Source: Letharia columbiana
Lineage: Eukaryota; Ascomycota; Lecanoromycetes; Lecanorales; Parmeliaceae
Length of the DNA: 64,000 nucleotides
Direction of reading: 5' to 3'
NCBI RefSeq assembly: GCF_014066305.1
Contig: NW_023501114.1
Span: 124,001-188,000 of the forward strand
A program made the translations under genes and the position numbers. The notes beneath the pieces are model-generated. The model saw only the letters and a list, made by a program, of their open reading frames with translations. It made no database searches and was not told the origin of the DNA. Every line of letters begins with the position of its first letter. The first letter of the stretch is position 1. Below are positions 1-55,647 of this stretch, in pieces.

Positions 1-3000
1 AATAATTAATTAGATTTTAAGATTTAATTATATATAGATAGCGATTTACTATATAGCTTAACTTTAGAAAAACTTCTAAAATAGATTTATATCTAATAAG
101 AATCTATTAGCTTTAAATTATATAAAAACGCTAAAAGTAATATAATATAGCGAGAATATAAATCGAGTATATTTCGATATATAGACGATATAAATTAGAC
201 TTCTAACGACTAAATAGTTAAATCTTATTATTAATTAGATCGACGTCTCTCGCGAAGATAGCGGTTTCTCTATAAAAAGAGTATTCTAAGTAATAACTCG
301 AGTAATTAAGTATATATAGAGTATTATATAATATAGCGATAATATATTATCTTATAAAAGTCTTATTCGAATTAAATAGCGACGATAACTTACTAGTAGA
401 AAAGCGAGTAAATAAGTTTTATAGCGAATAAATAGAGTAGATATTATTATTTATAGCGGTAATAGATAATATAATTTCTCTTTTAAATAGATTCGTCTTC
501 GAGAATAATAGTAATAGCTCTATATAGTAACTATAGAGCGTAATTAAATATCTTATAATATATTATTATTTAAAGTCGCTATTCTTAGATTTAGCTTAAG
601 ATTATATAAATTCGCCTATATAAAGAAATATAGTAAATACGAGATAAAAGAAAGTATATAAAGTAATTTTCTCTAGGAAAGTCTTATCGAATTAGATAAA
701 GATATAAAGTAGTAGATCTTATATAATTAAATAGCGTTTTTTAATATCGATCTTATTACGTAATTTATAAATATTAGCGATTACTCGCTATAATAGTAGA
801 TAATAAAAGATCTCGAGATTCTTAAATCTTATATTTATATAAGCTAATTAAACGTCTATAAGATAGATCTTAATAGATTTAATCTAAATATAATAATTAA
901 TTAGATATATTATTTAATCGATAAATAATTAAATAATAGCGAAAAACGTAATAGTTCTTAATAGGGTATAAAACTCGATATAGAAGGCCTTCGCCGTTTA
1001 ATAGCTACTTCTTATCTTATTAATTAAACTCTATTAGAGATATCTCGCGATATTATAATTTAGAGAAGTCTTCTTATATTATAATTTAGATAAATCGCGA
1101 TTTAATAATTTCTATATAGATTAAGAGCGTTTAGCTATAAATATAAATTAATAATTTTATTAAATTTAAAGTAAGAGAGTAAGTCGACTAAAGTATTTTA
1201 TTTAACATCTATAAATCTGAAAAGTAAATTTTCGTACGATTTTCGCCGAGTTCGTATTATAAGTATAATTTAGTCTATTAAGTAAACTTTACTTATATCT
1301 AATTCTTTTTATTAATTCTACTAGTTTAGTAACTTTAAAAACTTTTAGTAACTTTAAAAATTTTATATAATATACTCTAATATACTCTAAGTATTATTCT
1401 ATATATATATAATATTAATATATATTATTATTAATATATATATTATTATACGCTATATTAGAGTATTATCTACGCGACTAATTTTATTAAATCGTTTAAT
1501 TTTATAATTAAATTTAAGTTAATATTGATATTTATCGTCGTAGAACCTTATCATCGCAACGTCGATTATTAGAACTTTTCTTTTTTTATACGTATTACTA
1601 TTAAACTAATAGAACTAGTAAAAAAGATTAGAATAGTTATTAAACCGGCGGAATTTAGGTAGATTCTAATTAGATTTACTAATTCGATGAATTTTGTAAT
1701 TTCCGCGATAAACGCGCGATTAGCAATTTCAAATTTTATAGAAACTTTTTAAATTTGCAGATGAATAGAGATTTAAATTATATTATAAATAATATCGTAT
1801 TAGGCGAATAATATAACTATTTATCTAAGTAATACTATAGCTAATTTATATATAGAATTACTATTAATATTCTTAATAATAATATTATTATTATAGTAGA
1901 GTATAAGATATAATTAATATAAGTAAAATAGTTATTTAAAAATAATTATAAGAATAATTATTCTTTTTACGATAGCGAATAGCGAAGTATATATTAAATA
2001 TATCGTCTAGTTTAGAATAAGTAATAATATTCTTAAGAATATATCTTTCTATTTCGAGCTTATTAGAAGCGTTTATTTATATAGAATAATAATAGCGTAT
2101 AACTATACGGCGGAGTAATTATATCTTATTTTATCTAAATAGAAAGATATTTTATTAGCGTAAATTCGCTACGATTATAGCGATAATATAATAATATTCT
2201 CGTTTTTTAAATAATACGAAGTAGAGTCTTCTTAGAAAAGCTCTATTAGAGATTATTATTTTAGCGAAGAAGAATAGTAGATCTATCGCTAACTTAAGCT
2301 CGTTATAGAAGATACTCTATCTATTTAGAAGAGCTTTTATTAACTTTCTCGCTTATTTTAACTTATCGAAAGAGAGCTTAATCTTTATCTTCTCGCTATT
2401 AAACTTAATTTCTAAAAATTTAATTTAAGTATCTTTTTTATTCTTAATATAATTTATCTTTAAATTATAGTTATTATAGACGATATTAAAGTTATTATTA
2501 AATTAGCTTATATCGCTATTAAATAGAAAGATAGCGAAGAAATTATCTAGATAGTAAAAAATAATACTTTAGAATAAAATAATAATAAGTATTTAATAAA
2601 GGGTCTTAGCGAATAAATTAAAAATAAAGAGTGCGGTATATAGATTAAATAATAAGAATCTATTAATATAATAGAAGCTATTCTAAAAGAAACTTAGTAG
2701 TTAAAAATTCGACTCGGCTATAGAGATATATCTAAATACGTTAACGAGGTCTTATTTAATTATAATTATATTCTCGCTTTAAGTAAGTAAGATATCGATA
2801 ATATCGTCTAATATAATATACTCGAGTACTTTATAGACTTTATAAATATAGTAGTTAACGAAGTATAGTCGTAGAAAGAAAAGATCGTAAATTCTTCTTT
2901 AGTCGTTATTATACTTCGAAATAAGATTTAATAAAAATGAAATAAAGTATTTCGAGAGTTCTACGTCTAATCGTATTAGACGATTATTATTCTTCTACTT

Positions 3001-4575
3001 TTAAAGGTCTTTAAATAGTATTTCGAGTATTATAGCGATATTAAAATAAGGTTTATTTAATAATAACTAATTAAAGCCTTAATAGCCTATTTTAATATCG
3101 CGGGCGATAATTATAAATAAGATATTAGCGAATATCTAATCGAGATAATTCTTAAGCTATTTCTTTTAGTCGTCTTTCTTTAATAGACTATATCTTTTTA
3201 ATAAAGACTTATTTAGCGAGATAAGTATATATAGAAATAACTTAACTATCGACTTAAGGCCTCTCGATATTAATTATAATCGAGAGGTAGAAGAAGACTT
3301 TATATCTAGCGAGGTAATATTAGCGAAGATTTTATTAATATAGCTAATAATAGAATATAATTAATTATATATATTATATATATATAGATAATAATAATTT
3401 TAAGAGTTATAGAGTTTATTATAATTAAATCGATTATAATAGAATAATTAAGGGTTTTAAATATTTTAATAAGAAGATATAGAAGTAATATTATAATATA
3501 TCTAGAATAAAGTCTAATTTAGACGTAAATTATATAATAAATAAACTTTCGATTAAATAGACGAGAGTCGCTATCTTAGAATTCGATTTTCTAAATAATT
3601 ATCGAGTATTCGTTATATATAGATATCGTCTTAATAAAGCTAAATTCTATTATAAACGAAGATCTTATAAAAATAATATATCGATTAAAAGATATAGATA
3701 GTTAATAGATTAGAAATATAATAGCGATAGTTTAATAGAGCTTCTTAAAGAAGTAAGGCGATTATTTTATAGATAAAGAAATATATAATTTAACTATAGA
3801 CCTCGAAGTATCAAAGAAGCTCTTTAAGTTTCTTAATCTTCTTATCGTTAGCGAGGCGGTTAATAAAGCTATTAAATAGCTTATTAAGATATTTAATATT
3901 AAACGTTTTATAATAGATTTATTTAATATATTTTAGATTCACCGCTTTAAAATAAAGAAGAAGAAAGATTATTATAGAGTTATTATCTTAATATAAAAAG
4001 AAGCGATATAATACTACTTTTATCTTAGACGATATTAATATTCTCTATTATAGTAAAATTAAAGTTAATTATAAAACTTAAAGAGATATAGATAACGACT
4101 AAGAAGATAAAGCGAATAGAAAAGACTAATAAGTCGATAATATAAAGATTTATAATATAAGCTAATATAAGATAAAGATAGTTAACTAGCGACGAGTATA
4201 AATCTTATTAACCTCGCTTTATATATACGGGCGAGTTTGTCGTAATTATAGAGTATATTATTTTCGTCGATCTATTCTTATTTGAGTTTTTAATAAATAA
4301 ATTATAATTAAATAATATAGAAATTAAGAATTAGATTTAACGAGGTAAATAATTCTATTAAAGAATCTAGCTAATAAGTAGAAGATATAGCGAGAATAGA
4401 GGGAGATAAGAGTTTATTAGAGAGCCCTTTTATAGATTTAATAGACGATTCTTATAAAGATAATAATTTAATAACGATAGTCTAATATATAGTTATAGCC
4501 TTTACGATAGACTTATAAGAACGCTTTAATATTATTAATAGTAGCTAAATAGTAGTAATATAAGTAGAAGAATAA
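1..4575. mobile_element. RIP-degraded transposon block, left end outside window
   Basis: The block is very AT-rich, has no usable reading frame, and is nearly free of CA and TG dinucleotides while CG survives. This is the signature of repeat-induced point mutation acting on a repeated element. Several stretches align by eye with the second AT-rich block: about 815-930 with 51,690-51,790 (shared TATTTATATAAGCTAAT), and about 2260-2560 with 52,600-52,910 (shared GCGAAGAAGA and ATCGCTAACT). I infer a related transposase-bearing element. The stretch ~1190-1770 keeps more CA and TG, so it may be a boundary between two insertions. The right edge is where ordinary sequence resumes near 4575. No terminal repeat was found. 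Confidence 0.8.
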
Positions 4576-5740: not shown

Positions 5741-6891
5741 ATGGTTCTGTATCTGAAGAAACTGCTCATCATCTTCTTGGTCCGAAGATTGTGCTCGGGT
5801 CAATCAACGTCAGGTGGGTGTCGATCAGCGTAATGAAACTCTCGACTGCTCATTTTGTCAACGAGACTCTTGCAGTACTTGTAGTGCAGCACCAACATGC
5901 ACAGGCTACAATGTGAACGCAGATGTGGTTACCTCGCGCGGCACTTCTTGGAGTTATTTTAACCCCTATGAACCTGGAGTTGCGTAAGCATGAAACCCTG
6001 ACACTGCTATATTGCGGCTAATAGATACAACGAGCAGCACTTCTTTTACTGACTATAACCCCGCATATGCGTAAGTGCGAAGCTCCGATTCCGTTATCTG
6101 CAACTGAGATATACAATCACAGACAAGCATTCTTGCAAGCTTCTCTCATTTTTACAGCATACTCTGTCACCTCGACCTCCTCAGTGACAGGGAACTGCCT
6201 TACATATACTAGCTCACCGGTCCCATTGGTCGATGCACAAATTTTCCCCGTTCCCTTGACTGTTGAAACTGAGAACTACAGCAGCTTCGTGAATGACGCA
6301 TACTCCTCTTTCTATGCCACATTAGGTTACAAGGGATGTATTGCTGCCTTGACGCCAGGTCAATCATTACCAACATACCAAGGAATGTTCATAGCATCAA
6401 CCTCAGCGACGACACTCATCTCGGCAACTGCGGCAGAGACCTCAGCAACTACATTACCGTCGGTGACGTCGGCGAAGACCGCAGTACTCTCGCAACATGT
6501 CCACTCTACGCAAATCATCATCCTTTCTGTCGTAGTGCCAAGTGCTGGACTGATGATACTCCTCCTTTGCTTCATCATCATCCGTCGATACCGGAAGAAG
6601 CGAAGCCTGGCAGCGTCCACGAACCATCCAGCAATGACATCGAATATGCAACTTTACCTGGACCAGAAAGCGGAACTAGAAGATGAAGAACGAAGAAAAC
6701 ACGAACTAGATGCAGGAGGAGATACGTATGAGATGGAAGGAAAAGACTGCATATTCGAGATGCCAGGCGCCGCAAACACAGAAACGAGGTCAGCATCGTG
6801 TGACGAGGTACACGAGTTGAGAGGCGCGGAACATTCGAGAGAACTCGAAGTCCTCGGTAAAGTTGAGGCCGCAAGTGGGAGCCCGAGGTGA
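5741..6891 (+). CDS. Single-pass membrane protein, AELEDE/HEL-tail family, member 1
   Basis: Model: exons 5741-5813, 5866-5983, 6038-6070 and 6123-6891; introns of 52, 54 and 52 nt that keep the frame. Exon 1 encodes a signal peptide (MVLYLKKLLIIFLV). It is followed by a Cys-containing ectodomain (SCSTCSAAPTCTGY, then an aromatic SWSYFNPYEP segment), a Ser/Thr-rich stalk, a transmembrane helix (IIILSVVVPSAGLMILLLCF), a basic stop-transfer stretch RRYRKKR, and a cytoplasmic tail with KAELEDEERRKHEL, YEMEGKD, FEMPG and HELRGAEHSRELEV. The tail matches the genes at 7828 and 11,871, so this is a local paralogous family. Function unknown; a surface sensor or wall protein is inference. The least certain choices are the GTGGGT donor of intron 1 and the acceptor of intron 2, where GAG and CAG both keep phase. 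Confidence 0.7.
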
Positions 6892-7827
6892 TTATGTACG
6901 AAGTCATCAAGGGGGATCGCGTTTGCAGCACCGCGAGTATTAGGTATGTGGGATCTCAGCCCTTTTTCAGTTAGTACAACATACGAGCTGGAGCTACGCT
7001 CAGCCTTTTCATTCTTTGATCGCAGACACGGGACGCGTTCACACGTAAAAAGTTTGACGACTTCTCTGGAGTGGTCTGTCGCGGTTCTGTGGTAGTGGCA
7101 CGACCGATCCGGCAGAGAGCCGGAGACATCGATTGAAAAGTGGAAAACAATGATCGTGTAACGGAGATGCAAGAGGAGAGGGGATCAGGGATGCGATATT
7201 TGCCCGTCAGACACGAGTTGAATGGCAATGACCGTTTGAAGGAAATGTGAGTGCCTTCGTGCTGCTTCCGCCGTCGATGATCTTCCCGCGATCGATGTCT
7301 AATAAGAATGAGGCAGGGCAACACAAATTCGAACTTTATTAGGAGTATCCTAAGACTGGCAAGAACATGGATGGTACCGTTGCTCTATGACGCATTCTTA
7401 TGTCTAGAAAGGGTTTTCGGATCATCGACACCAATCGCATGCTCGCCCGCGCCGTGCGCATAATGCACGCCTGCAGATTCAAGCGAGCCAACGATACTCG
7501 CTTATAGACCTCCATGCCGTGACACCAAGTGGGGTTAAAAGCAGGGCGCACACTGCAACAAAATGTTGGCACAGGGAAAGGTAGTCAGCAAGCCATGCGA
7601 TTGGAATCAACTTAAACCGGAGGCACTAGCTCTCGCAAGCACATCCCCTTTCGTCAGTAGCAACCGACTTATTGACTAGCGCTACTACCCATCATGCTTG
7701 GTCTGGGAAAAACATTTTTGCCGCAACGGTCTTCTCTCCACATATACCTTCCAGAGTCACAGAATGGCTCCGTAGACTGGAGGAAAGAATCTGTTGGGCA
7801 TGGTCTTAAGACCATTCGGATTTCTCG
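6892..7827. other. Intergenic, no gene recognised
   Basis: Spacer between two paralogous membrane protein genes. Several short ORFs are open on the minus strand, but none shows a domain, signal peptide or coherent exon structure. Confidence 0.4.
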
Positions 7828-8921
7828 ATGTATTGGAAGATGACCCTACTGATCGCTTGTGTCATCCCGGGCTTGGGCTTTTGCTTTGTTCGGTCGGTAT
7901 CAGCTCTGGGAGCCGGTAAGCTTTGACCACAGTATTTGCATTATCAATTTGGGCGCATTCCAACTTATCTATGACAGTGAATCCAAATTCTACAACTCCC
8001 ACGAGCATTTCGTCGGCGAAATCATTCGGTGCAGCTCCAACAGCACCACCAGCGTCACAAGCGACACCTCTAAGCGAAGCGGATGGTCGATCAGCAGCAG
8101 CAGCATCCGTGGGAGCATCTGCATCCGCAAGCTTATCATCCGCAGCATTGTCACAAAAACTAGCCGCAGCAGTATCGTCACAAGCGTTAGCAGCCGCGGC
8201 AAGCTCCACTAATTCCGGTTCCGAAGTGGGCATCCTTGCTCAGGTCATCATAGCCATTGGTGTCCTTCCAATCGAAGTACTTATCGTGACAATTGTGCTT
8301 GGAATCCATAGGCTTATGCGTCGAAAGCCATCACGACCTCTCCGGACTAGGGTCGATATCACGAAACCAAAACGCGACTCACTACCTTACCTCCAGCCAA
8401 AGGCAGAGCTGGAAGATGAGCAGAGAAGAAGGCATGAGTTACATGGCGAGCACCTCGTACATGAATTGGATGGTAAGGATGAGATCTATCAGATGCCTGA
8501 CGAGACGGATAGTCTGGTCCTGCCTTTGCAGGGAAGACCAGGCATACATGAGATGCCAGAGGGGAGTCATGTGAGCTGGGAGATGCCTCTTCAAGGAAGG
8601 CATAAGGTGATGGGATGTGAGAATGCTCAAGAACTCGAGTCTCCAGCCCAAGAAAGAAACGAGTCCATCAGAGTGGAACGTCCGCATGAGCTTGAGTCTC
8701 CGATACGGTCAGGAAATGAGCCCATGGTGTTAGAGTCCGCTCAAGAGCTTGGGTCTCCAGTAGGAGCGAAGAACAAAGTGGAAAACGCTCAGGGTCTTGC
8801 CGCTCCGGTTGAAGATCCCGTTACAGACTCTACGCATGTCAACCCAAGTCGAAGCCATTTCATGTTGAGGCAGCAACAAATGTTAGACATCGATGTTGTA
8901 ACGGCGACAGCACAAAATTGA
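7828..8921 (+). CDS. Single-pass membrane protein, AELEDE/HEL-tail family, member 2
   Basis: Exons 7828-7915 and 7978-8921, joined by a 62-nt intron (GTAAGC...ACAG) that preserves the frame. The start is the first ATG after an in-frame stop at 7807. Exon 1 encodes a signal peptide (MYWKMTLLIACVIPG...). The ectodomain is short, rich in Ser, Thr and Ala, and has no cysteine pattern. The membrane helix covers VIIAIGVLPIEVLIVTIVLG, followed by basic residues. The long tail starts with KAELEDEQRRRHEL, then VHELDGKDEIYQMP, IHEMPEG and WEMPLQG, and ends in four degenerate units built on AQELESP (nt ~8620-8810). The ectodomain is much shorter than in the neighbouring paralogues, so either exons were lost or it evolved quickly. 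Function unknown. Confidence 0.75.
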
Positions 8922-48989: not shown

Positions 48990-50085
48990 TAAATAGCGAG
49001 TGAAGTTCGAGCCGTCGCCACAACCTGATACCGCTGTGGGAACCGAGTAGCCTCCTCCTTAGAAAGCAAGTAAGAAGGGATCAAAGGTGATGTATAACCT
49101 CTAGAGCTCTTTTAAGCGAAATGCTATAGGTTCTTTACCGTGACTTACCCACATCCTATCGAGACTTTTGACGGATCCCATACTGAATTGACGGCTACAT
49201 TGTATAGCGATAATGAGAATGTTTGCAAAGAACGGTCATACTCGGCGATCGTAGGAGTACAACTGACCTAAGGCTCTAGTAGCCCCTTTTTGATGGTATG
49301 CTCCGGCCTTTGAGCCTTGACGTACCTAATTTCCTCCCGTTCTTGCTCAAAATGCACACTACCGTACCGGAGCAATTCTGCAAACGTCCCGGGCGCTACA
49401 TCCTTCCCCTGGTTCTCTTCCATATCCCACAGAACGCCCAGCGCGAGTCCCTTGGTTAAATTCTTCCCATGCGTAATCTTCTGCATACTTGATTGCGTCA
49501 GCAGCCTCCAAATGGTTTTATGTGCCGCCTGGTAATCCTCTGATTCTGAAATTGCATCGCATCTCGTCGTCAGCACGTTGAAAAGGTCCTGCCCCGAGAA
49601 ACCAATAGTTGCTTCCGCGCCCCAGTCCTCGGACAGTGAGTCGAACAGCAGGACTTTGTCCTCGTAGTACTCCGTGCCGTTGAAGCCGTCGTTCGGATCT
49701 TCGAGCATGCACAGTCGCAGCCAGGCCAGAACCTGCCCGATGTATTCCATGACCGTGCGGGGTTCGACCTTAAACTCCCAATGGTATTTCATCGCCTGTG
49801 AGTCCTCGAATTTGATTTGCTTGCCGAACGAGACCAAAGGATTTTCAGTCATACCACCGGGGTTGGTGCGGTCCTTCCATAAGTGAACGAAAAGATCATG
49901 CCTTGGGATGTCAGTATATGGAAGGAAGAGAGAAGCGCTAGAGGAGAAGAAAGCGAATAGCGACGAAGATTGGCAGGCATCGAATATAGTAGATCATATT
50001 GAGCACTGTCCTTGATAATCTTCATGCACCTCGTCGTATCCTTTTACCATTTTCATGCAAACGAGAAGTACGTGAATGTTCACTT

Positions 50086-50094
50086 ATTAGTGCT
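50086..50094. repeat. Target-site duplication, left copy
   Basis: ATTAGTGCT equals the right-hand copy ACCAGCGCT (55,080-55,088) after three C-to-T changes. The middle copy ATTAATACT lies at 50,528-50,536. Confidence 0.8.
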
Positions 50095-50527
50095 CGCAAA
50101 CAGTGAGGCCATACAGAAATAACGTATGCACAAGTAGATATATAGATATATGATTAGGCATATCCAATACTGGGGTAGCTAAGACCTTTTTGAATATCTG
50201 GACTAAGCAGATAGCCTCGAAAAAGGCCCCCCAGCGCTAGAAAAACTCCTATATCTAAGCGATATACTTTGAAGTGAAATAAAGCTATATATAGATATAA
50301 GTAAGAGGAAGAATAATAATATAGCTCTAAAGGAGAATAATTTGAATAAAGAGCCTACTATAGGTACAGCGGCCCTACAAATAGTACTCGCTATATCCCC
50401 CTATCTCTCGTATATTATATATCGAATATCGCATATCGAATATTATATAGTAATAAAACGACTAATTAAAAGCTATTAACGCTATAGTCTTATAATAGAT
50501 CTATTAATTTATAATTCTACTATTACG
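50095..50527 (+). mobile_element. Non-autonomous internally deleted element A (433 bp)
   Basis: Starts CGCAAACAGTGAGGCC. Its first ~180 bp match the 5' part of element B (GATAGCCTCGAAAAAG, AGCGCTAGAAAAACTC) and its last ~250 bp match the 3' part of B (AGCGGCCCTACAAAT, TCGCATATCGAAT). The middle of B and a ~170-bp 5' block are missing. It has no coding capacity. The left end is little affected by RIP and the right end strongly. Confidence 0.8.
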
Positions 50528-50536
50528 ATTAATACT
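50528..50536. repeat. Target-site duplication, middle copy between elements A and B
   Basis: ATTAATACT is a RIP-mutated version of ACCAGCGCT: C-to-T and G-to-A changes only. Confidence 0.75.
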
Positions 50537-53500
50537 CGTAAATAATAAGATTATATAGAAATAACGTATATATAAGTAGATATATAGATATATAATTAGA
50601 TATATTTAATACTAAGATAACTAAAACCTTTTTTAAATATCTATATTAGAATCGATATAGATATAATATTAATATAGATATATTTAATAAGATAACTAAG
50701 ATATCGAACTATATAGATAGAAGAAAGATATTAAATAGTAGATAAATGTCTCTATTAAGACACGCTAGGCTCGAATAAGTAAGAGGACTAAGTAGTATAT
50801 TAAGAATATAGAATACGCTCGTAACAATCTAGACTGAGTAGATAGCCTCGAAAAAGATCTCTTAGCGCTAGAAAAACTCTTAAATAACCTAAAACGTCGT
50901 TTAAAGAGGGCGAAGATCTTAAGAAGAACTCTTAATAATATCTATTATAATAAATAATAGAGATTAATAATACTAACGCGAACGGGCTAAAAGATACTAA
51001 TATTATAATAATACTCTAAGTATATAGACTAGATAAATAATAATATATAAATAATAAAAATCTAACTTTTAACGATCTAGTAATTAGATCTTATTATTAC
51101 TAAGATTAATATTATATATTAATATTATAGCCTCTCTATAAAAGAAGTAATCTAAATAATAGCTCTTAATATTAAATAATATTAATATCTCGCGGAGGTT
51201 ATTAATAACGGTGTTTCTAGTAAAGAAGAAACCTCTTAGCTAAAATAGCGATATATTAGATAAAGCCTCTTACTTAAAGAGATAACGTAAGACTTTAACT
51301 ATATATACGTTATCGTCTAATATAACTATTATAAATATAATTTTACGATAAAATAGATTCGTTTTAAATGTTAAAAGTATAAGTTTTAAATAATTATTAA
51401 ATAGTCTTATTGAGTAATATATAAGAAACTATTCGCCGAAGTCCTTCTATTAAAGATCTCGCTTATTATAAATAAACTCACCTACGCGTAGAAATACCGC
51501 GAAGATAAAATAAAAAAAGATATATAGAGTCGTCTCGATATAGATTAATTTATCGAAATAAGAAAGAATTTAAAGTAATAGATTCTTAATAATTAAACGT
51601 CTTTTCTTCGTATTAGCTTCGCTATAAAGACGTTAATTATTTATAATAATATATTATAACTAAAAATAATAAAATATTAAGAGATTATCGAATTCTATAT
51701 TTATATAAGCTAATCTAAGATCGATAAGATATATCTTTATCGATTTCGACTTAACGCGATAAGTACTTAAATTAATAATTTAATCGATAAGAGTATTTAT
51801 AGTTATTAAAAAGAGAGGTTAAATCTCTATAAGTGCGTAATAGATTATATAGAATCTTATTAAAGTTATATATATCTTTTTAATTTTAATAATAAGCCTC
51901 TATTAGAGAAGTTATACGGTCTCTCTAGATAGTATAATCTAATTATATTAATATTCTAATAAATCTCGCCCTATTTTAGCGAAGATTTAAGATCTTTTAG
52001 CTATAAATATTCGTTAGCGATTTTTTAAGATTAAAAATATAATAGATTATTAACTAGCTAATTAGCCTTCGTAGATATCTAAATAAGTATTATTATAATA
52101 TTATAAATAGTTATTAATATAGCTATATCGCGTAATAAGGCTATAACTAGCCCGTATATAGAGAATTTATATAATTTATTAACGTATATATTATTATCGT
52201 AGTAGAGAACTAAGCGAGATTTTTATAACTAATATAACTATAGCTTTATCGCGTAATAGATAATCTTTATTTTTTTAAATTATATATCTTTAAAATAATA
52301 ATATATAGCTATCTTAATACTAAAAACGTCTTTAAGCTAAATCGATTAAATATAATTAGAATAATTAAGAATATAGTCTCTTATATCGAATTTTCTAGAT
52401 ATATTAATTTATATATATTACGTAACTTAACTATTAATATAGCGTATTAAGGCGATATTATTCTAATACTTTAAGAAGATATCTCATTATAATAAGTCTA
52501 CTCTTATATTATCTATAATTCATATAATTATCATAGGCCTTCGAAGAATATTAAAAAGTCGTCTTAAGAATACTCTTTTTAAAATTATAATTTTTATAGC
52601 GAAGAAGAGGAAGCTAATCGCTAACTCGAGCTTTTAATATAAAATAATTATTCTTTTTAAAAGATTTTTAGTTATAATTCTCGTCTTAATTAGCTTATTC
52701 GAGGGAAATCTCGCTTTTATATAAATACTATCGAATTCGATTTCTAGAAACTTAATTATAAAATTTATAATATTTTTTATATAATTAATTCGAAGGCTTA
52801 ATTTACTATATAGCTAATCGAATTACTAGATATATATAGTTACGTTATTATCTAATAAAAGAATTATAAAGAAATCGTCTAAATAGTAAAGTATTACTTT
52901 TTATAGAAAAATCGTAATTAAGATTTAAATAAAGGCCTTTATAAAGAGATTAAATAGAAATAATAATATACGTAATTTAAATAATAGATATCGTTCTTTT
53001 TAATAGCGTTTATCGCAATTAAAACTAAGTAGCTATTAATTCGATATAGCGATAGATATATATCTAAAAGCGTCTTTAAAATCTCTTTTAATAAATTAGA
53101 CCCTTAAGCCTTTCTATAATAATACTACTACTATATTATTATATATAATATATTTTAATACGCCTTACTTCGCTTAAATATCGTTATTAATTAAATAGTC
53201 ATATAAGAATAAGAGATTATAAATTTATCTTTAATCTCTATCGTATTTTAATATTAATTCGAATAGCGAATAGATATAATAGAGCTCGTTTTAAGAGTTA
53301 ACCTCGATTAAATAATATTACTAAAGCTATTTTTAAAGATTCGCCGATAATATTTAAAGTGCTTAACGTGCTAATAAATAATTTTAATTACGATAAACTA
53401 AGATAGAGCTTTAAAAATCTATCTTAACGCCCTTTCGAAGAATAATTAAAATAGTCTTAATAAATATTAGATTTAAGTAATCGTTTAATTATTTAAATTA

Positions 53501-55079
53501 ATTATTAATTATTAATAATTCTTAATAAGATAAATTTAGATTTAATAGATTATATAGCGTATATAGAAATCTCTTAGATATATACTATAGCGACTATAGT
53601 ATCTACGAATACTCTAAAAGTTATTCTAGTCTAATAATATAATTATTTAATAATAATTAATTAAAAATATTTATCGCTAAGTTTTAGATCTTAAAATACT
53701 TATTTAACGAGTAATTTTATTAATAGATTAAATAGATATATAAGTAGAGATAGCGCTCGCGAAAATAGTTACCTCTATTAAAACTTTTATAAATTCTAGA
53801 TTCTTCGACTATAGCGGGCTTATTAAGGCTAAAAGTACTAGTATTTAATCTACTATTATTCGTATAAGTTTCTTTAAATACGAGAAGATCTCTATAGCTC
53901 TAATCGTCTATCTTCTAAATCTTAAGATTATCTTAATTATTCTAAATATATATAATAATAAAGATAAGATAATAAGCGAGAATAAAGTTAAATTTATAAA
54001 TAAGAAATAGACGTAGTAGGCGAATAGTATACATATAAAGAATCTTATTTAAGTCTTTCTTTACGCTTATATAAATAAAGCGACTAGCGATTATCGAGTA
54101 TATAAGAAAATAATATATTATATAATTATAGTTATTAATATTCTTATTCTTTTTAATTAAAATAATATATATATAAATTAGCTTAACGAAGTTTTTAATC
54201 TTAAAAATTTCGAAGAAGATTTACTTAAAGTACTTAATATTTATACTTTAAAACCTTTTAATAATACTAAAAAAGGGCTTCTTATCTTTTAAATAATAAA
54301 ATAAGATTTCTCTTCTTTTCTTCTAATTCGACTTAGAGTTAAACGAGTTTATATTTAATATATTCGAGTAACGATAATAATAACTACGACTATAGCGATA
54401 GTAATAGTAATATAATTTATAAACTTAACTCTTATAATAAATTCGACTCTTATAATAATAGCGCTAATTTTAATTCTCTTAAACTTTAGATAGCTAGACT
54501 ATTAATTTTATAAGATCTACTTTAAACCTCTTAATAAGCGAGAATATTTCATTAATCTTATTTAAGATAATAATTCTCGATAGCGTTTCTAATATAAGAA
54601 TCTTATCGCGGGAAAAAGATATTTTAGTCTTAATAGTCTTTTTAATCTTAAGAACTTTAAAAGCCTTATTAGCGGCGTTAAAGGTTTTTTTAATAATTTT
54701 AAAGACGGGTATAACTTATATAATCGCTTTTTTAAACCTAATAATAGTAGCGAAAGCTATTATAAAGTATATAAGAGTATAAAATATATTTATAATAGTT
54801 AGATAATACTTATAATAATTAAATAAAGGCTAATATATATAGACTTAACTATAAAAAGAAGAAGAATAATAATATAGCTCTGAAGAGAATAATTCGAATA
54901 AAGAGCCCACTACAGGTGCAGCGGCCCTACAAATAATACTCGCCATATCCCTCTGTCTCCCGTATATCGTATGTCGGATATCGCATATCGGATATCGCAT
55001 AGTAATAGGACGGCTGATCAAAAGCCACCAACGCTATGGCCTCATAATGGACCCACTAACCCACAGTCCCACTGTTGCG
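50537..55079. mobile_element. RIP-destroyed DNA transposon, element B (~4.5 kb)
   Basis: Left terminus CGTAAATAATAAG is a RIP version of CGCAAACAGTGAG. The right terminus, read inverted, is CGCAACAGTGGGACTG. With the 9-bp flanks this indicates a terminal-inverted-repeat transposon, Mutator- or hAT-like. The interior lacks CA and TG and has no ORF, so the transposase can no longer be read. Stretches align with the block at 1-4575. The last ~220 bp are nearly free of RIP. Confidence 0.8.
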
Positions 55080-55647
55080 ACCAGCGCTTGATGAATGGAT
55101 TACCTTTCCGGCTTGCGACGAAATGGTTTGCCATGACTGTGCCATACATCCATGGGACGGAGACCTCGAAAGGCGAATCAGGGTCCTCCAGCTGCCTCCA
55201 GCAGATGTTCTCAAGCCGACGAATAAGAATGATACCGACATCCATCCAGACGCCGCCGTAAAGGAAAAGACACGCGCCACGCAGAAAATCCGCACTGTGC
55301 GGGCCGGTATAGGGACCGTCCATGGTGCCCTTGACGAAGGTTTCCGGGAGCAGTCCTGCAGAGACCCAGTTGAGTGCATTGTTTGGCGAGCTGGGAACAT
55401 TGTCGAGGATACGGATGGACCACGACGGACCGCTTAGGCGAACCCAGTTCACGACATTGCGCTGGCACCAGGCAGGCATGGAGCGGACGCCGGAGTGCCA
55501 GTAGGTCCATACATTCTTCTCCGAGGTGACGGGCGCATGCTCGGACAGTGAATCTAGAATCTCCTCGTTTGATCGTGTGTCAAGAGCTTCGACGTAATGG
55601 AGGTCAGAACGGAACTCATCTGGGATAGGTACCTGGGATTCTTGCAT

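Follow-up and report, generated by a model that had tools for sequence, protein, structure and literature searches.

The glycosyltransferase gene and the element within it

The window, a stretch of 64,000 nucleotides of Letharia columbiana DNA (positions 124,001 to 188,000 of contig NW_023501114.1, assembly GCF_014066305.1), carries on its minus strand a predicted glycosyltransferase gene with two open exons: exon 1 (55082..55647; 188 codons and the TG of a split Trp codon) and exon 2 (49271..49901; the G of that codon and 210 codons, with the stop codon at 49268-49270). Between them lies an AT-rich block, the GC content of 200-nt bins being 0.14-0.36 within 50101-54900 and 0.42-0.61 outside the block. 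This block is very probably one Ngaro-type tyrosine recombinase (YR) retrotransposon (50087..55080, minus strand, 4,994 bp, 5' end at 55080; limits from 34 left and 33 right ends of its family) that was inserted as a unit between the first base (G) and the second base (T) of the intron and was later damaged by repeat-induced point mutation (RIP). The features read directly in support of this are the ends of the element, its split repeats and domain remnants, the absence of a target duplication and the reading of the empty site.

By their predicted products, exon 1 and exon 2 are one glycosyltransferase of the Caps_synth type. When exon 1 was searched against Pfam it matched Caps_synth (PF05704) at 36.7 bits (E 4e-09; curated cut-off 24.5) and PF04488 at 22.0 bits, slightly under the cut-off of 23, and no Pfam family was matched by exon 2 searched alone. 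The two pieces amount to 189 codons, of which the intron interrupts the last, and 210 codons, and the preliminary description had joined them into a single gene of 399 codons. This was borne out by the relatives, of which exon 1 had 191 and exon 2 had 378 at E <= 0.001, with 120 listed for each. The best full-length relative with a named source among the exon-2 matches listed, P0019 of Lecanoromycetidae sp., is itself 399 amino acids long and shows 76% identity, and in all 13 full-length relatives that were aligned, chosen from the match list, exon 1 continued into exon 2 without a gap (..NPFIKRW/HDLFVHLW.. and variants; a slash within a sequence marks a junction here and below). In the genome searched (52.2 Mb, 161 contigs) there was one copy of the gene, plus a paralogue at 47%.

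On the minus strand exon 1 ends as ..AAGCGCTG/G at 55082/55081, the G at 55081 being intron base +1, and the occupied allele reads GTCGCA after exon 1, as had been described. The left flank resumes as TAAGTGAAC from 50086, so that the element separates this G from the T at 50086, which was originally intron base +2. When the 20-nt flanks were set side by side they read ..AAGCGCTG/GTAAGTGAAC, that is, a TG/GTAAGT donor, which upholds the earlier claim that the insertion lies exactly at the donor of exon 1 and that this donor was originally GTAAGT. The original remainder of the intron (TAAGT...ACTGAC...AG; 49902..50086, minus strand) retains a branch-site-like ACTGAC and an AG acceptor, and exon 2 starts at 49901, the border reading ..CTGACATCCCAAG/G. 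The intron is 5,180 nt long in the occupied allele and would be 186 nt in the empty one.

The introns of the orthologues were read indirectly, from where unspliced metagenomic open reading frames (ORFs) end or begin. Among the 120 exon-1 relatives listed, 82 stop exactly at the Trp, which is expected if TG/GTAA, TG/GTAG or TG/GTGA is read as TGG and a stop codon, and 18 of the best 20 end in this way. Another 26 run on with Tyr or Cys, whose codons begin with T and fit TG/GT, and the others are four with Ser or Leu, which are ambiguous, two with His, two that are already contiguous (match to a later motif) and four without the motif. Among the 120 exon-2 relatives listed, the Trp stands directly N-terminal of the HDLF-type motif in 46, 38 are without the motif and mostly start inside exon 2, and 36 enter from the intron. 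In all of these 36 an Arg precedes the His, as AG/G requires, and in 20 of them a branch-site-like motif is encoded. We infer that these codons are splice signals read through in the relatives' ORFs, and the predicted junction, donor type and acceptor of the glycosyltransferase intron are well supported. An orthologue with another exon junction, or relatives with the two halves as separate genes, had been named beforehand as findings that would speak against this; the relatives share the junction, many of the metagenomic ones retain an intron with this donor and acceptor, and the two halves are one protein.

Element ends and target duplication

The 24 bases from 50087 (TTAGTGCTCGCAAACAGTGAGGCC) were identical in all 12 matches listed, which represent eight distinct left ends, one of them an internal junction. 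In the survey of ends, external left ends were reduced from 37 to 34 by dropping those with more than five differences from the end sequence, and external right ends from 56 to 33 by dropping AT-rich pattern matches, altered ends and one variant internal copy in locus L020; seven loci were left out as duplicates or as having no element end of interest. No two of the 34 left ends share their 8-nt flank, and TTAGTGCT is exact in 28 of them; the base preceding the left end is A in 15, G in 12, C in 4 and T in 3. The right end reads ..CACTGTTGCG, mostly exactly, and the base that follows is A in 31 of the 33 cases and G in the other two. Since the ends are constant and the base before the left end is variable, the element extends from TTAGTGCT to TTGCGA, 50087-55080. 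The A found at 13 of 13 internal left ends was not used as evidence because the search pattern itself ended in A.

The preliminary description had proposed a 9-bp target duplication (ACCAGCGCT), one copy of which was thought to be mutated by RIP. Neither part could be maintained. The left copy, ATTAGTGCT, consists of a single base of the flank and then TTAGTGCT, which is the element's own end, and its likeness to the other copy is a resemblance of the target to that end. When 23 two-ended copies were examined with the terminal A assigned to the element, the flank duplication was zero in 16, one base in four, and two, four and five bases once each, and when the A was counted as target there was none in 12, one base in nine and two bases in two. 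Thus, no 9-bp duplication was found in these 23 copies, the longest being 5 bp, and this agrees with Ngaro elements, for which target duplications are not expected. When nine-base words were taken as in the preliminary description, the likeness within a copy was 3.78/9 versus 3.71 in shuffled data, and 25.6% of 2000 shuffles reached the observed value; the pair in the window agrees at 6/9, as do three other copies, and one copy agrees at 7. With at most one mismatch, the proposed 9-mer occurs 13 times in the window versus 11.8 expected.

Split repeats, coding remnants and RIP

On the minus strand the order is A1-gag-RT-RH-YR-B1-A2-B2 (RT, reverse transcriptase; RH, RNase H), i.e. A-pol-B-A-B, with the internal repeats downstream of the YR as in Ngaro elements. 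Repeat A1 (54856..55080, inner limit approximate) is 79% identical to 50333-50528 and 93% to 50303-50332, and repeat B1 (50529..50885, approximate) is 78% identical to 50086-50194 and 83% to 50196-50254 and contains about 190 nt that are absent from B2. Repeat A2 (50303..50528) belongs to the direct-repeat families D1 and D8, and repeat B2 (50087..50302) ends in TTAGTGCT (50087-50094, plus strand), where the left duplication copy had been placed; all four repeats lie on the minus strand. The internal RIGHT-A-LEFT junction recurs in 15 of 21 sources, which are the window plus 20 loci selected on account of paired hits, and solo AB units of 412-439 bp make up 9 of the 23 paired copies. What had been described as a compound of two transposons is hence the A-pol-B-A-B arrangement of one element. 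In the available parts of the publications concerned, split direct repeats of this order are given as a trait of Ngaro and related elements (PMC3783388, PMC4157794), and solo repeat units are also reported for Ngaro of Cafeteria burkhardae (PMC8547959).

The body of the element holds remnants of a Gag-like ORF (53624..54307; 45% identity over 228 amino acids to an ORF of locus L022), of RT-RNase H (51974..53596; E 9e-152, 50% over 513 amino acids; 15 TAG, 30 TAA and 2 TGA) and of a tyrosine recombinase (50976..52013; 45% over 346 amino acids; 6 TAG, 11 TAA and 0 TGA in 51135-52013), all on the minus strand, and this order on one strand is that of Ngaro elements. Locus L022 is a largely open relative with three minus-strand ORFs, Gag-like, RT and an early-ending recombinase-like ORF, and the same ORFs are present in L050. 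The RT ORF of L022 matched PF00078 at 8e-14, and the longer recombinase ORF found in L048 and L049 bears LRvGE, HSFRRG and GRW and then a Tyr. For the Gag-like ORF, Pfam had no match better than E 0.04. When the element ORFs were searched against NCBIfam, only matches far below the cut-offs were obtained (XerA, XerD, group II RT and RNase HI; with the Gag-like ORF, GltJ at chance level). The Dam-type methyltransferase PF05869 had no match genome-wide, the control search being positive in Escherichia coli, and none in the three ORFs of L022.

The GC content of the element is 0.21, and its TA/AT and (CA+TG)/(AC+GT) ratios are 1.24 and 0.07 versus 0.71 and 1.22 in the window background. The low GC content, these dinucleotide ratios and stop codons that are nearly all TAA or TAG together make a RIP pattern. 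Genome-wide, 69 stretches matched the YR and 80 matched the RT; these are pieces and not copies, and the numbers are lower bounds.

Target choice

In the window the target bases CCAGCGCT (55081..55088, plus strand) are identical to the element end TTAGTGCT at 5/8 positions. The 33 right flanks are all different, and at bases 2-4 past the terminal A they favour T (21), A (19) and G (19), with p values of 2e-4, 2e-4 and 3e-5, respectively; T, A and G are also what follows the first base in the start of the element, TTAG. The agreement between flank and element end over eight bases was 3.12 versus 2.13 in shuffled flanks, and 0 of 5000 shuffles were as high. At the nTAG offset 24 of 33 flanks have at least two letters of TAG versus 1-9 of 33 at 15 other offsets, and the exact TAG is present in 4 of 33 versus 0 or 1 at the others. 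This likeness of the targets to the element end explains the apparent duplication; if transitions are taken as agreement, the window and L022 are the two sites among the 33 that could be mistaken for a RIP-mutated duplication.

When the element ends are joined through the A they read TGTTGCGA-TTAGTGC-TCGCAAACA, in which two inverted arms are separated by a short spacer. Such an arrangement is typical of a tyrosine-recombinase crossover site. In the model for DIRS1-like elements, as outlined in the available part of its source, a 3-bp circular junction is matched in the genome and integration takes place without duplication (PMC3266345). By analogy with that model, a circular copy with the joined ends TTGCGA/TTAGTGC would recombine at a short target that is like its own end (nTAG), and a likely reason why the circular form integrated at this intron site is that CCAGCGCT resembles TTAGTGCT. 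The composition and the stop codons suggest that RIP would then have destroyed the element. That the element landed on a donor may be due to chance, the probability being a few per cent with a guessed 25,000 donors in 52 Mb and about 80 insertions.

The 33 right junctions, with the window at 55081-55088, look one-sided, in that the left end always keeps the element's TTAG and the right flank keeps the target's nTAG. If the spacer is mismatched, a two-strand exchange should yield mixtures of TTAG and nTAG.

Alternative explanations and fate of the gene

Several observations weigh against the reading as one Ngaro-type element. At the first base past the terminal A, T is found in only 3 of 33 flanks, below expectation (p 0.004), and because of this deficit simple homology is insufficient as an explanation of the target choice. 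G replaces the terminal A at the right ends of L020 and L032 (2/33). The RNase H Pfam scores of L022 (19.7 and 19.1 bits) are under the curated cut-offs, as is PF00589 (1e-4, 22.5 bits) in the 346-amino-acid recombinase ORF of L048 and L049. The match of the L048 recombinase ORF to Cre is weak, though near full length (E 0.01-0.1), and it became still weaker with a three-copy profile than with the single sequence, and a structure model from three close copies had a mean predicted local distance difference test score of 34.1, leaving the fold unmodelled. Of 12 end-bearing copies tested, five had Gag, RT and YR and seven had a YR piece only, and since these seven are without RT or Gag the junction statistics include non-autonomous copies. 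The assignment to Ngaro was made by repeat order, domain order and lack of a methyltransferase, from published descriptions and not from a tree, and in the available part of one study the published trees have split repeats and methyltransferase loss each arising more than once (PMC4157794). A split-repeat YR retrotransposon that is not a true Ngaro, either a methyltransferase-less PAT-like element or a member of an unnamed lineage, would have acted by the same mechanism; considering that the domain order, the repeats downstream of the YR and the lack of a methyltransferase are the feature set given for Ngaro, we regard this as unlikely. Far less probable still is the history given in the preliminary description, in which a short and a long transposon used one target and left three 9-bp duplication copies, one of them RIP-mutated. 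The 9-mers at 50086-50094, 50529-50537 and 55080-55088 of the window do differ by transitions only, joining the flanks restores the donor under that model too, and some DNA transposons, e.g. Mutator-like elements, are known to combine 9-bp target duplications with short inverted ends; with these the element shares a short inverted similarity of its ends. However, TTAGTGCT stands at 28 of 34 left ends regardless of the flank, the 23 pairs have no 9-bp duplication, 15 of the 21 sources have the middle junction as well and the body matches RT and tyrosine recombinase. A DNA transposon with a 9-bp target duplication was rejected on the same grounds, as there is no duplication and the element has RT and YR where a DDE transposase would be required. 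An assembly error that placed a repeat in the gene can be imagined for an element that is repetitive and AT-rich, but both junctions lie exactly at family ends, the flanks give a consensus donor and one conserved protein, and the assembly has one copy of the gene besides the 47% paralogue; misassembly was rejected, the junctions being exact, and its probability is negligible.

Coming back to a single Ngaro-type insertion, the terminal T of the element remakes a GT and so leaves a weak donor, GTCGCA, for a 5,180-nt intron with both coding exons intact. The possible outcomes, as far as the letters allow a prediction and as the preliminary description already had it, are loss of function or a giant intron. 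The insertion is probably fairly recent, and the expression of the gene probably strongly reduced or lost. The other outcome, that the gene is kept, its 5.2-kb intron spliced from GTCGCA or from an in-frame GTTAGT and its exons under selection, seems rather less probable. GTTAGT lies 21 nt inside the element, in frame from exon 1, and would add seven codons with no stop between; the acceptor and the branch-like site are retained, and the open exons have 0 deviations at the 44 and 46 columns that are conserved in at least 95% of the relatives. These 0 deviations mean that the insertion is recent, or that the gene still works, or both. Against the gene being kept, a recent insertion would leave the exons just as intact, and 0 deviations are common among the relatives too, the gene ranking 51/120 and 53/121. 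The donor is also weak. Introns of 5.2 kb far exceed the usual fungal length and RIP-damaged DNA tends toward silencing, and both points count against the gene being kept.

Relation to known elements

The class of element is already known; the new parts are its host, its history of RIP and the likeness of its targets to its own end. With Ngaro, as described in the available parts of the reports on Basidiomycota (PMC3783388) and Cafeteria burkhardae (PMC8547959), the family shares the A-pol-B-A-B repeats, the order of Gag-like, RT-RNase H and YR, the lack of a methyltransferase and solo AB units. It differs in that the host is an ascomycete, many copies bear RIP and the likeness of target and element end has been measured, and the likening to Ngaro is by features and not by a tree. 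With DIRS1-like elements it shares the tyrosine recombinase and the modelled duplication-free circular integration at a short match, but in DIRS1, as the available part of that source describes it, the terminal repeats are inverted and are accompanied by internal complementary regions and a methyltransferase (PMC3266345), and none of these features was found in the family of the window. DIRS1-like membership was rejected because the terminal repeats are direct and PF05869 is lacking. PAT-like elements share the split direct repeats and the YR and have a methyltransferase domain in the portion of the source available (PMC4157794); membership in this group was rejected because the genome has no PF05869.

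A 2013 survey of 177 fungal genomes lists, in the part available, one truncated Ngaro in Ascomycota (PMC3783388), and in a 2011 survey, likewise available in part, none of 75 ascomycetes had DIRS1-like copies that were well conserved (PMC3266345). Later ascomycete papers have, in the sections available, Ngaro or Gypsy/DIRS1 among their counts of repeat classes (PMC7601665, PMC12387558, PMC7181583), and the words Ngaro and DIRS are absent from the available sections of a Cladonia paper with strong RIP (PMC12542154). In the literature searched on Ngaro with ascomycetes, lichens, Pezizomycotina or target sites, in part among the best-ranked entries, no such family or target preference was found described, most subscription journals being outside the search. 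A multi-copy split-repeat family of the Ngaro type in an ascomycete widens the range seen in the available part of the survey of 177 genomes (PMC3783388). The locus also shows how the target resemblance of a recombinase can look like a mutated target duplication, and that a history read from two flanks can have the empty site right and the mechanism wrong. With its 33 right junctions the family offers natural data on the site choice of YR retrotransposons, and in the split donor nature has set up a test of whether splicing can cross a silenced insertion. A more far-reaching proposal would be that this ascomycete Ngaro family takes purine/nTAG targets through a one-sided strand exchange by its YR, that insertion after a G remakes a GT donor, and that a gene whose donor has been split can thereby stay spliceable, with a RIP-silenced intron of several kb as the result; taken as a whole, this is speculative and improbable.

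Other observations

The 47% paralogue of the glycosyltransferase (L038, contig C22:178022-178531) has Trp and His in line, without the intron, and its exon-2 match soon stops in an AT-richer stretch. Two of the seven end-bearing copies with a YR piece only, L019 (1804-4683) and L025 (3023-5657), have no RT or Gag match and contain tandem arrays with periods of 9, 44, 88 and 132 bp, and a 52-bp repeat of L019 (CATTATTCAGGCCAGTCCTTCCGCAGAGGGGCTACAAC..) appears to derive from the HSFRRG box of the recombinase. Beside the end-bearing copy of L025 are ORFs (6801-8165) that we take to resemble a Pif1-type helicase, and this copy has perhaps been inserted into a Helitron. Finally, a second and more distant YR retrotransposon is present at the left edge of the window, with minus-strand remnants at 269-1117 and 1960-3183 that match the YR at 31% (E 3e-31; 4 TAG, 14 TAA) and the RT at 34% (E 3e-59; 6 TAG, 17 TAA).

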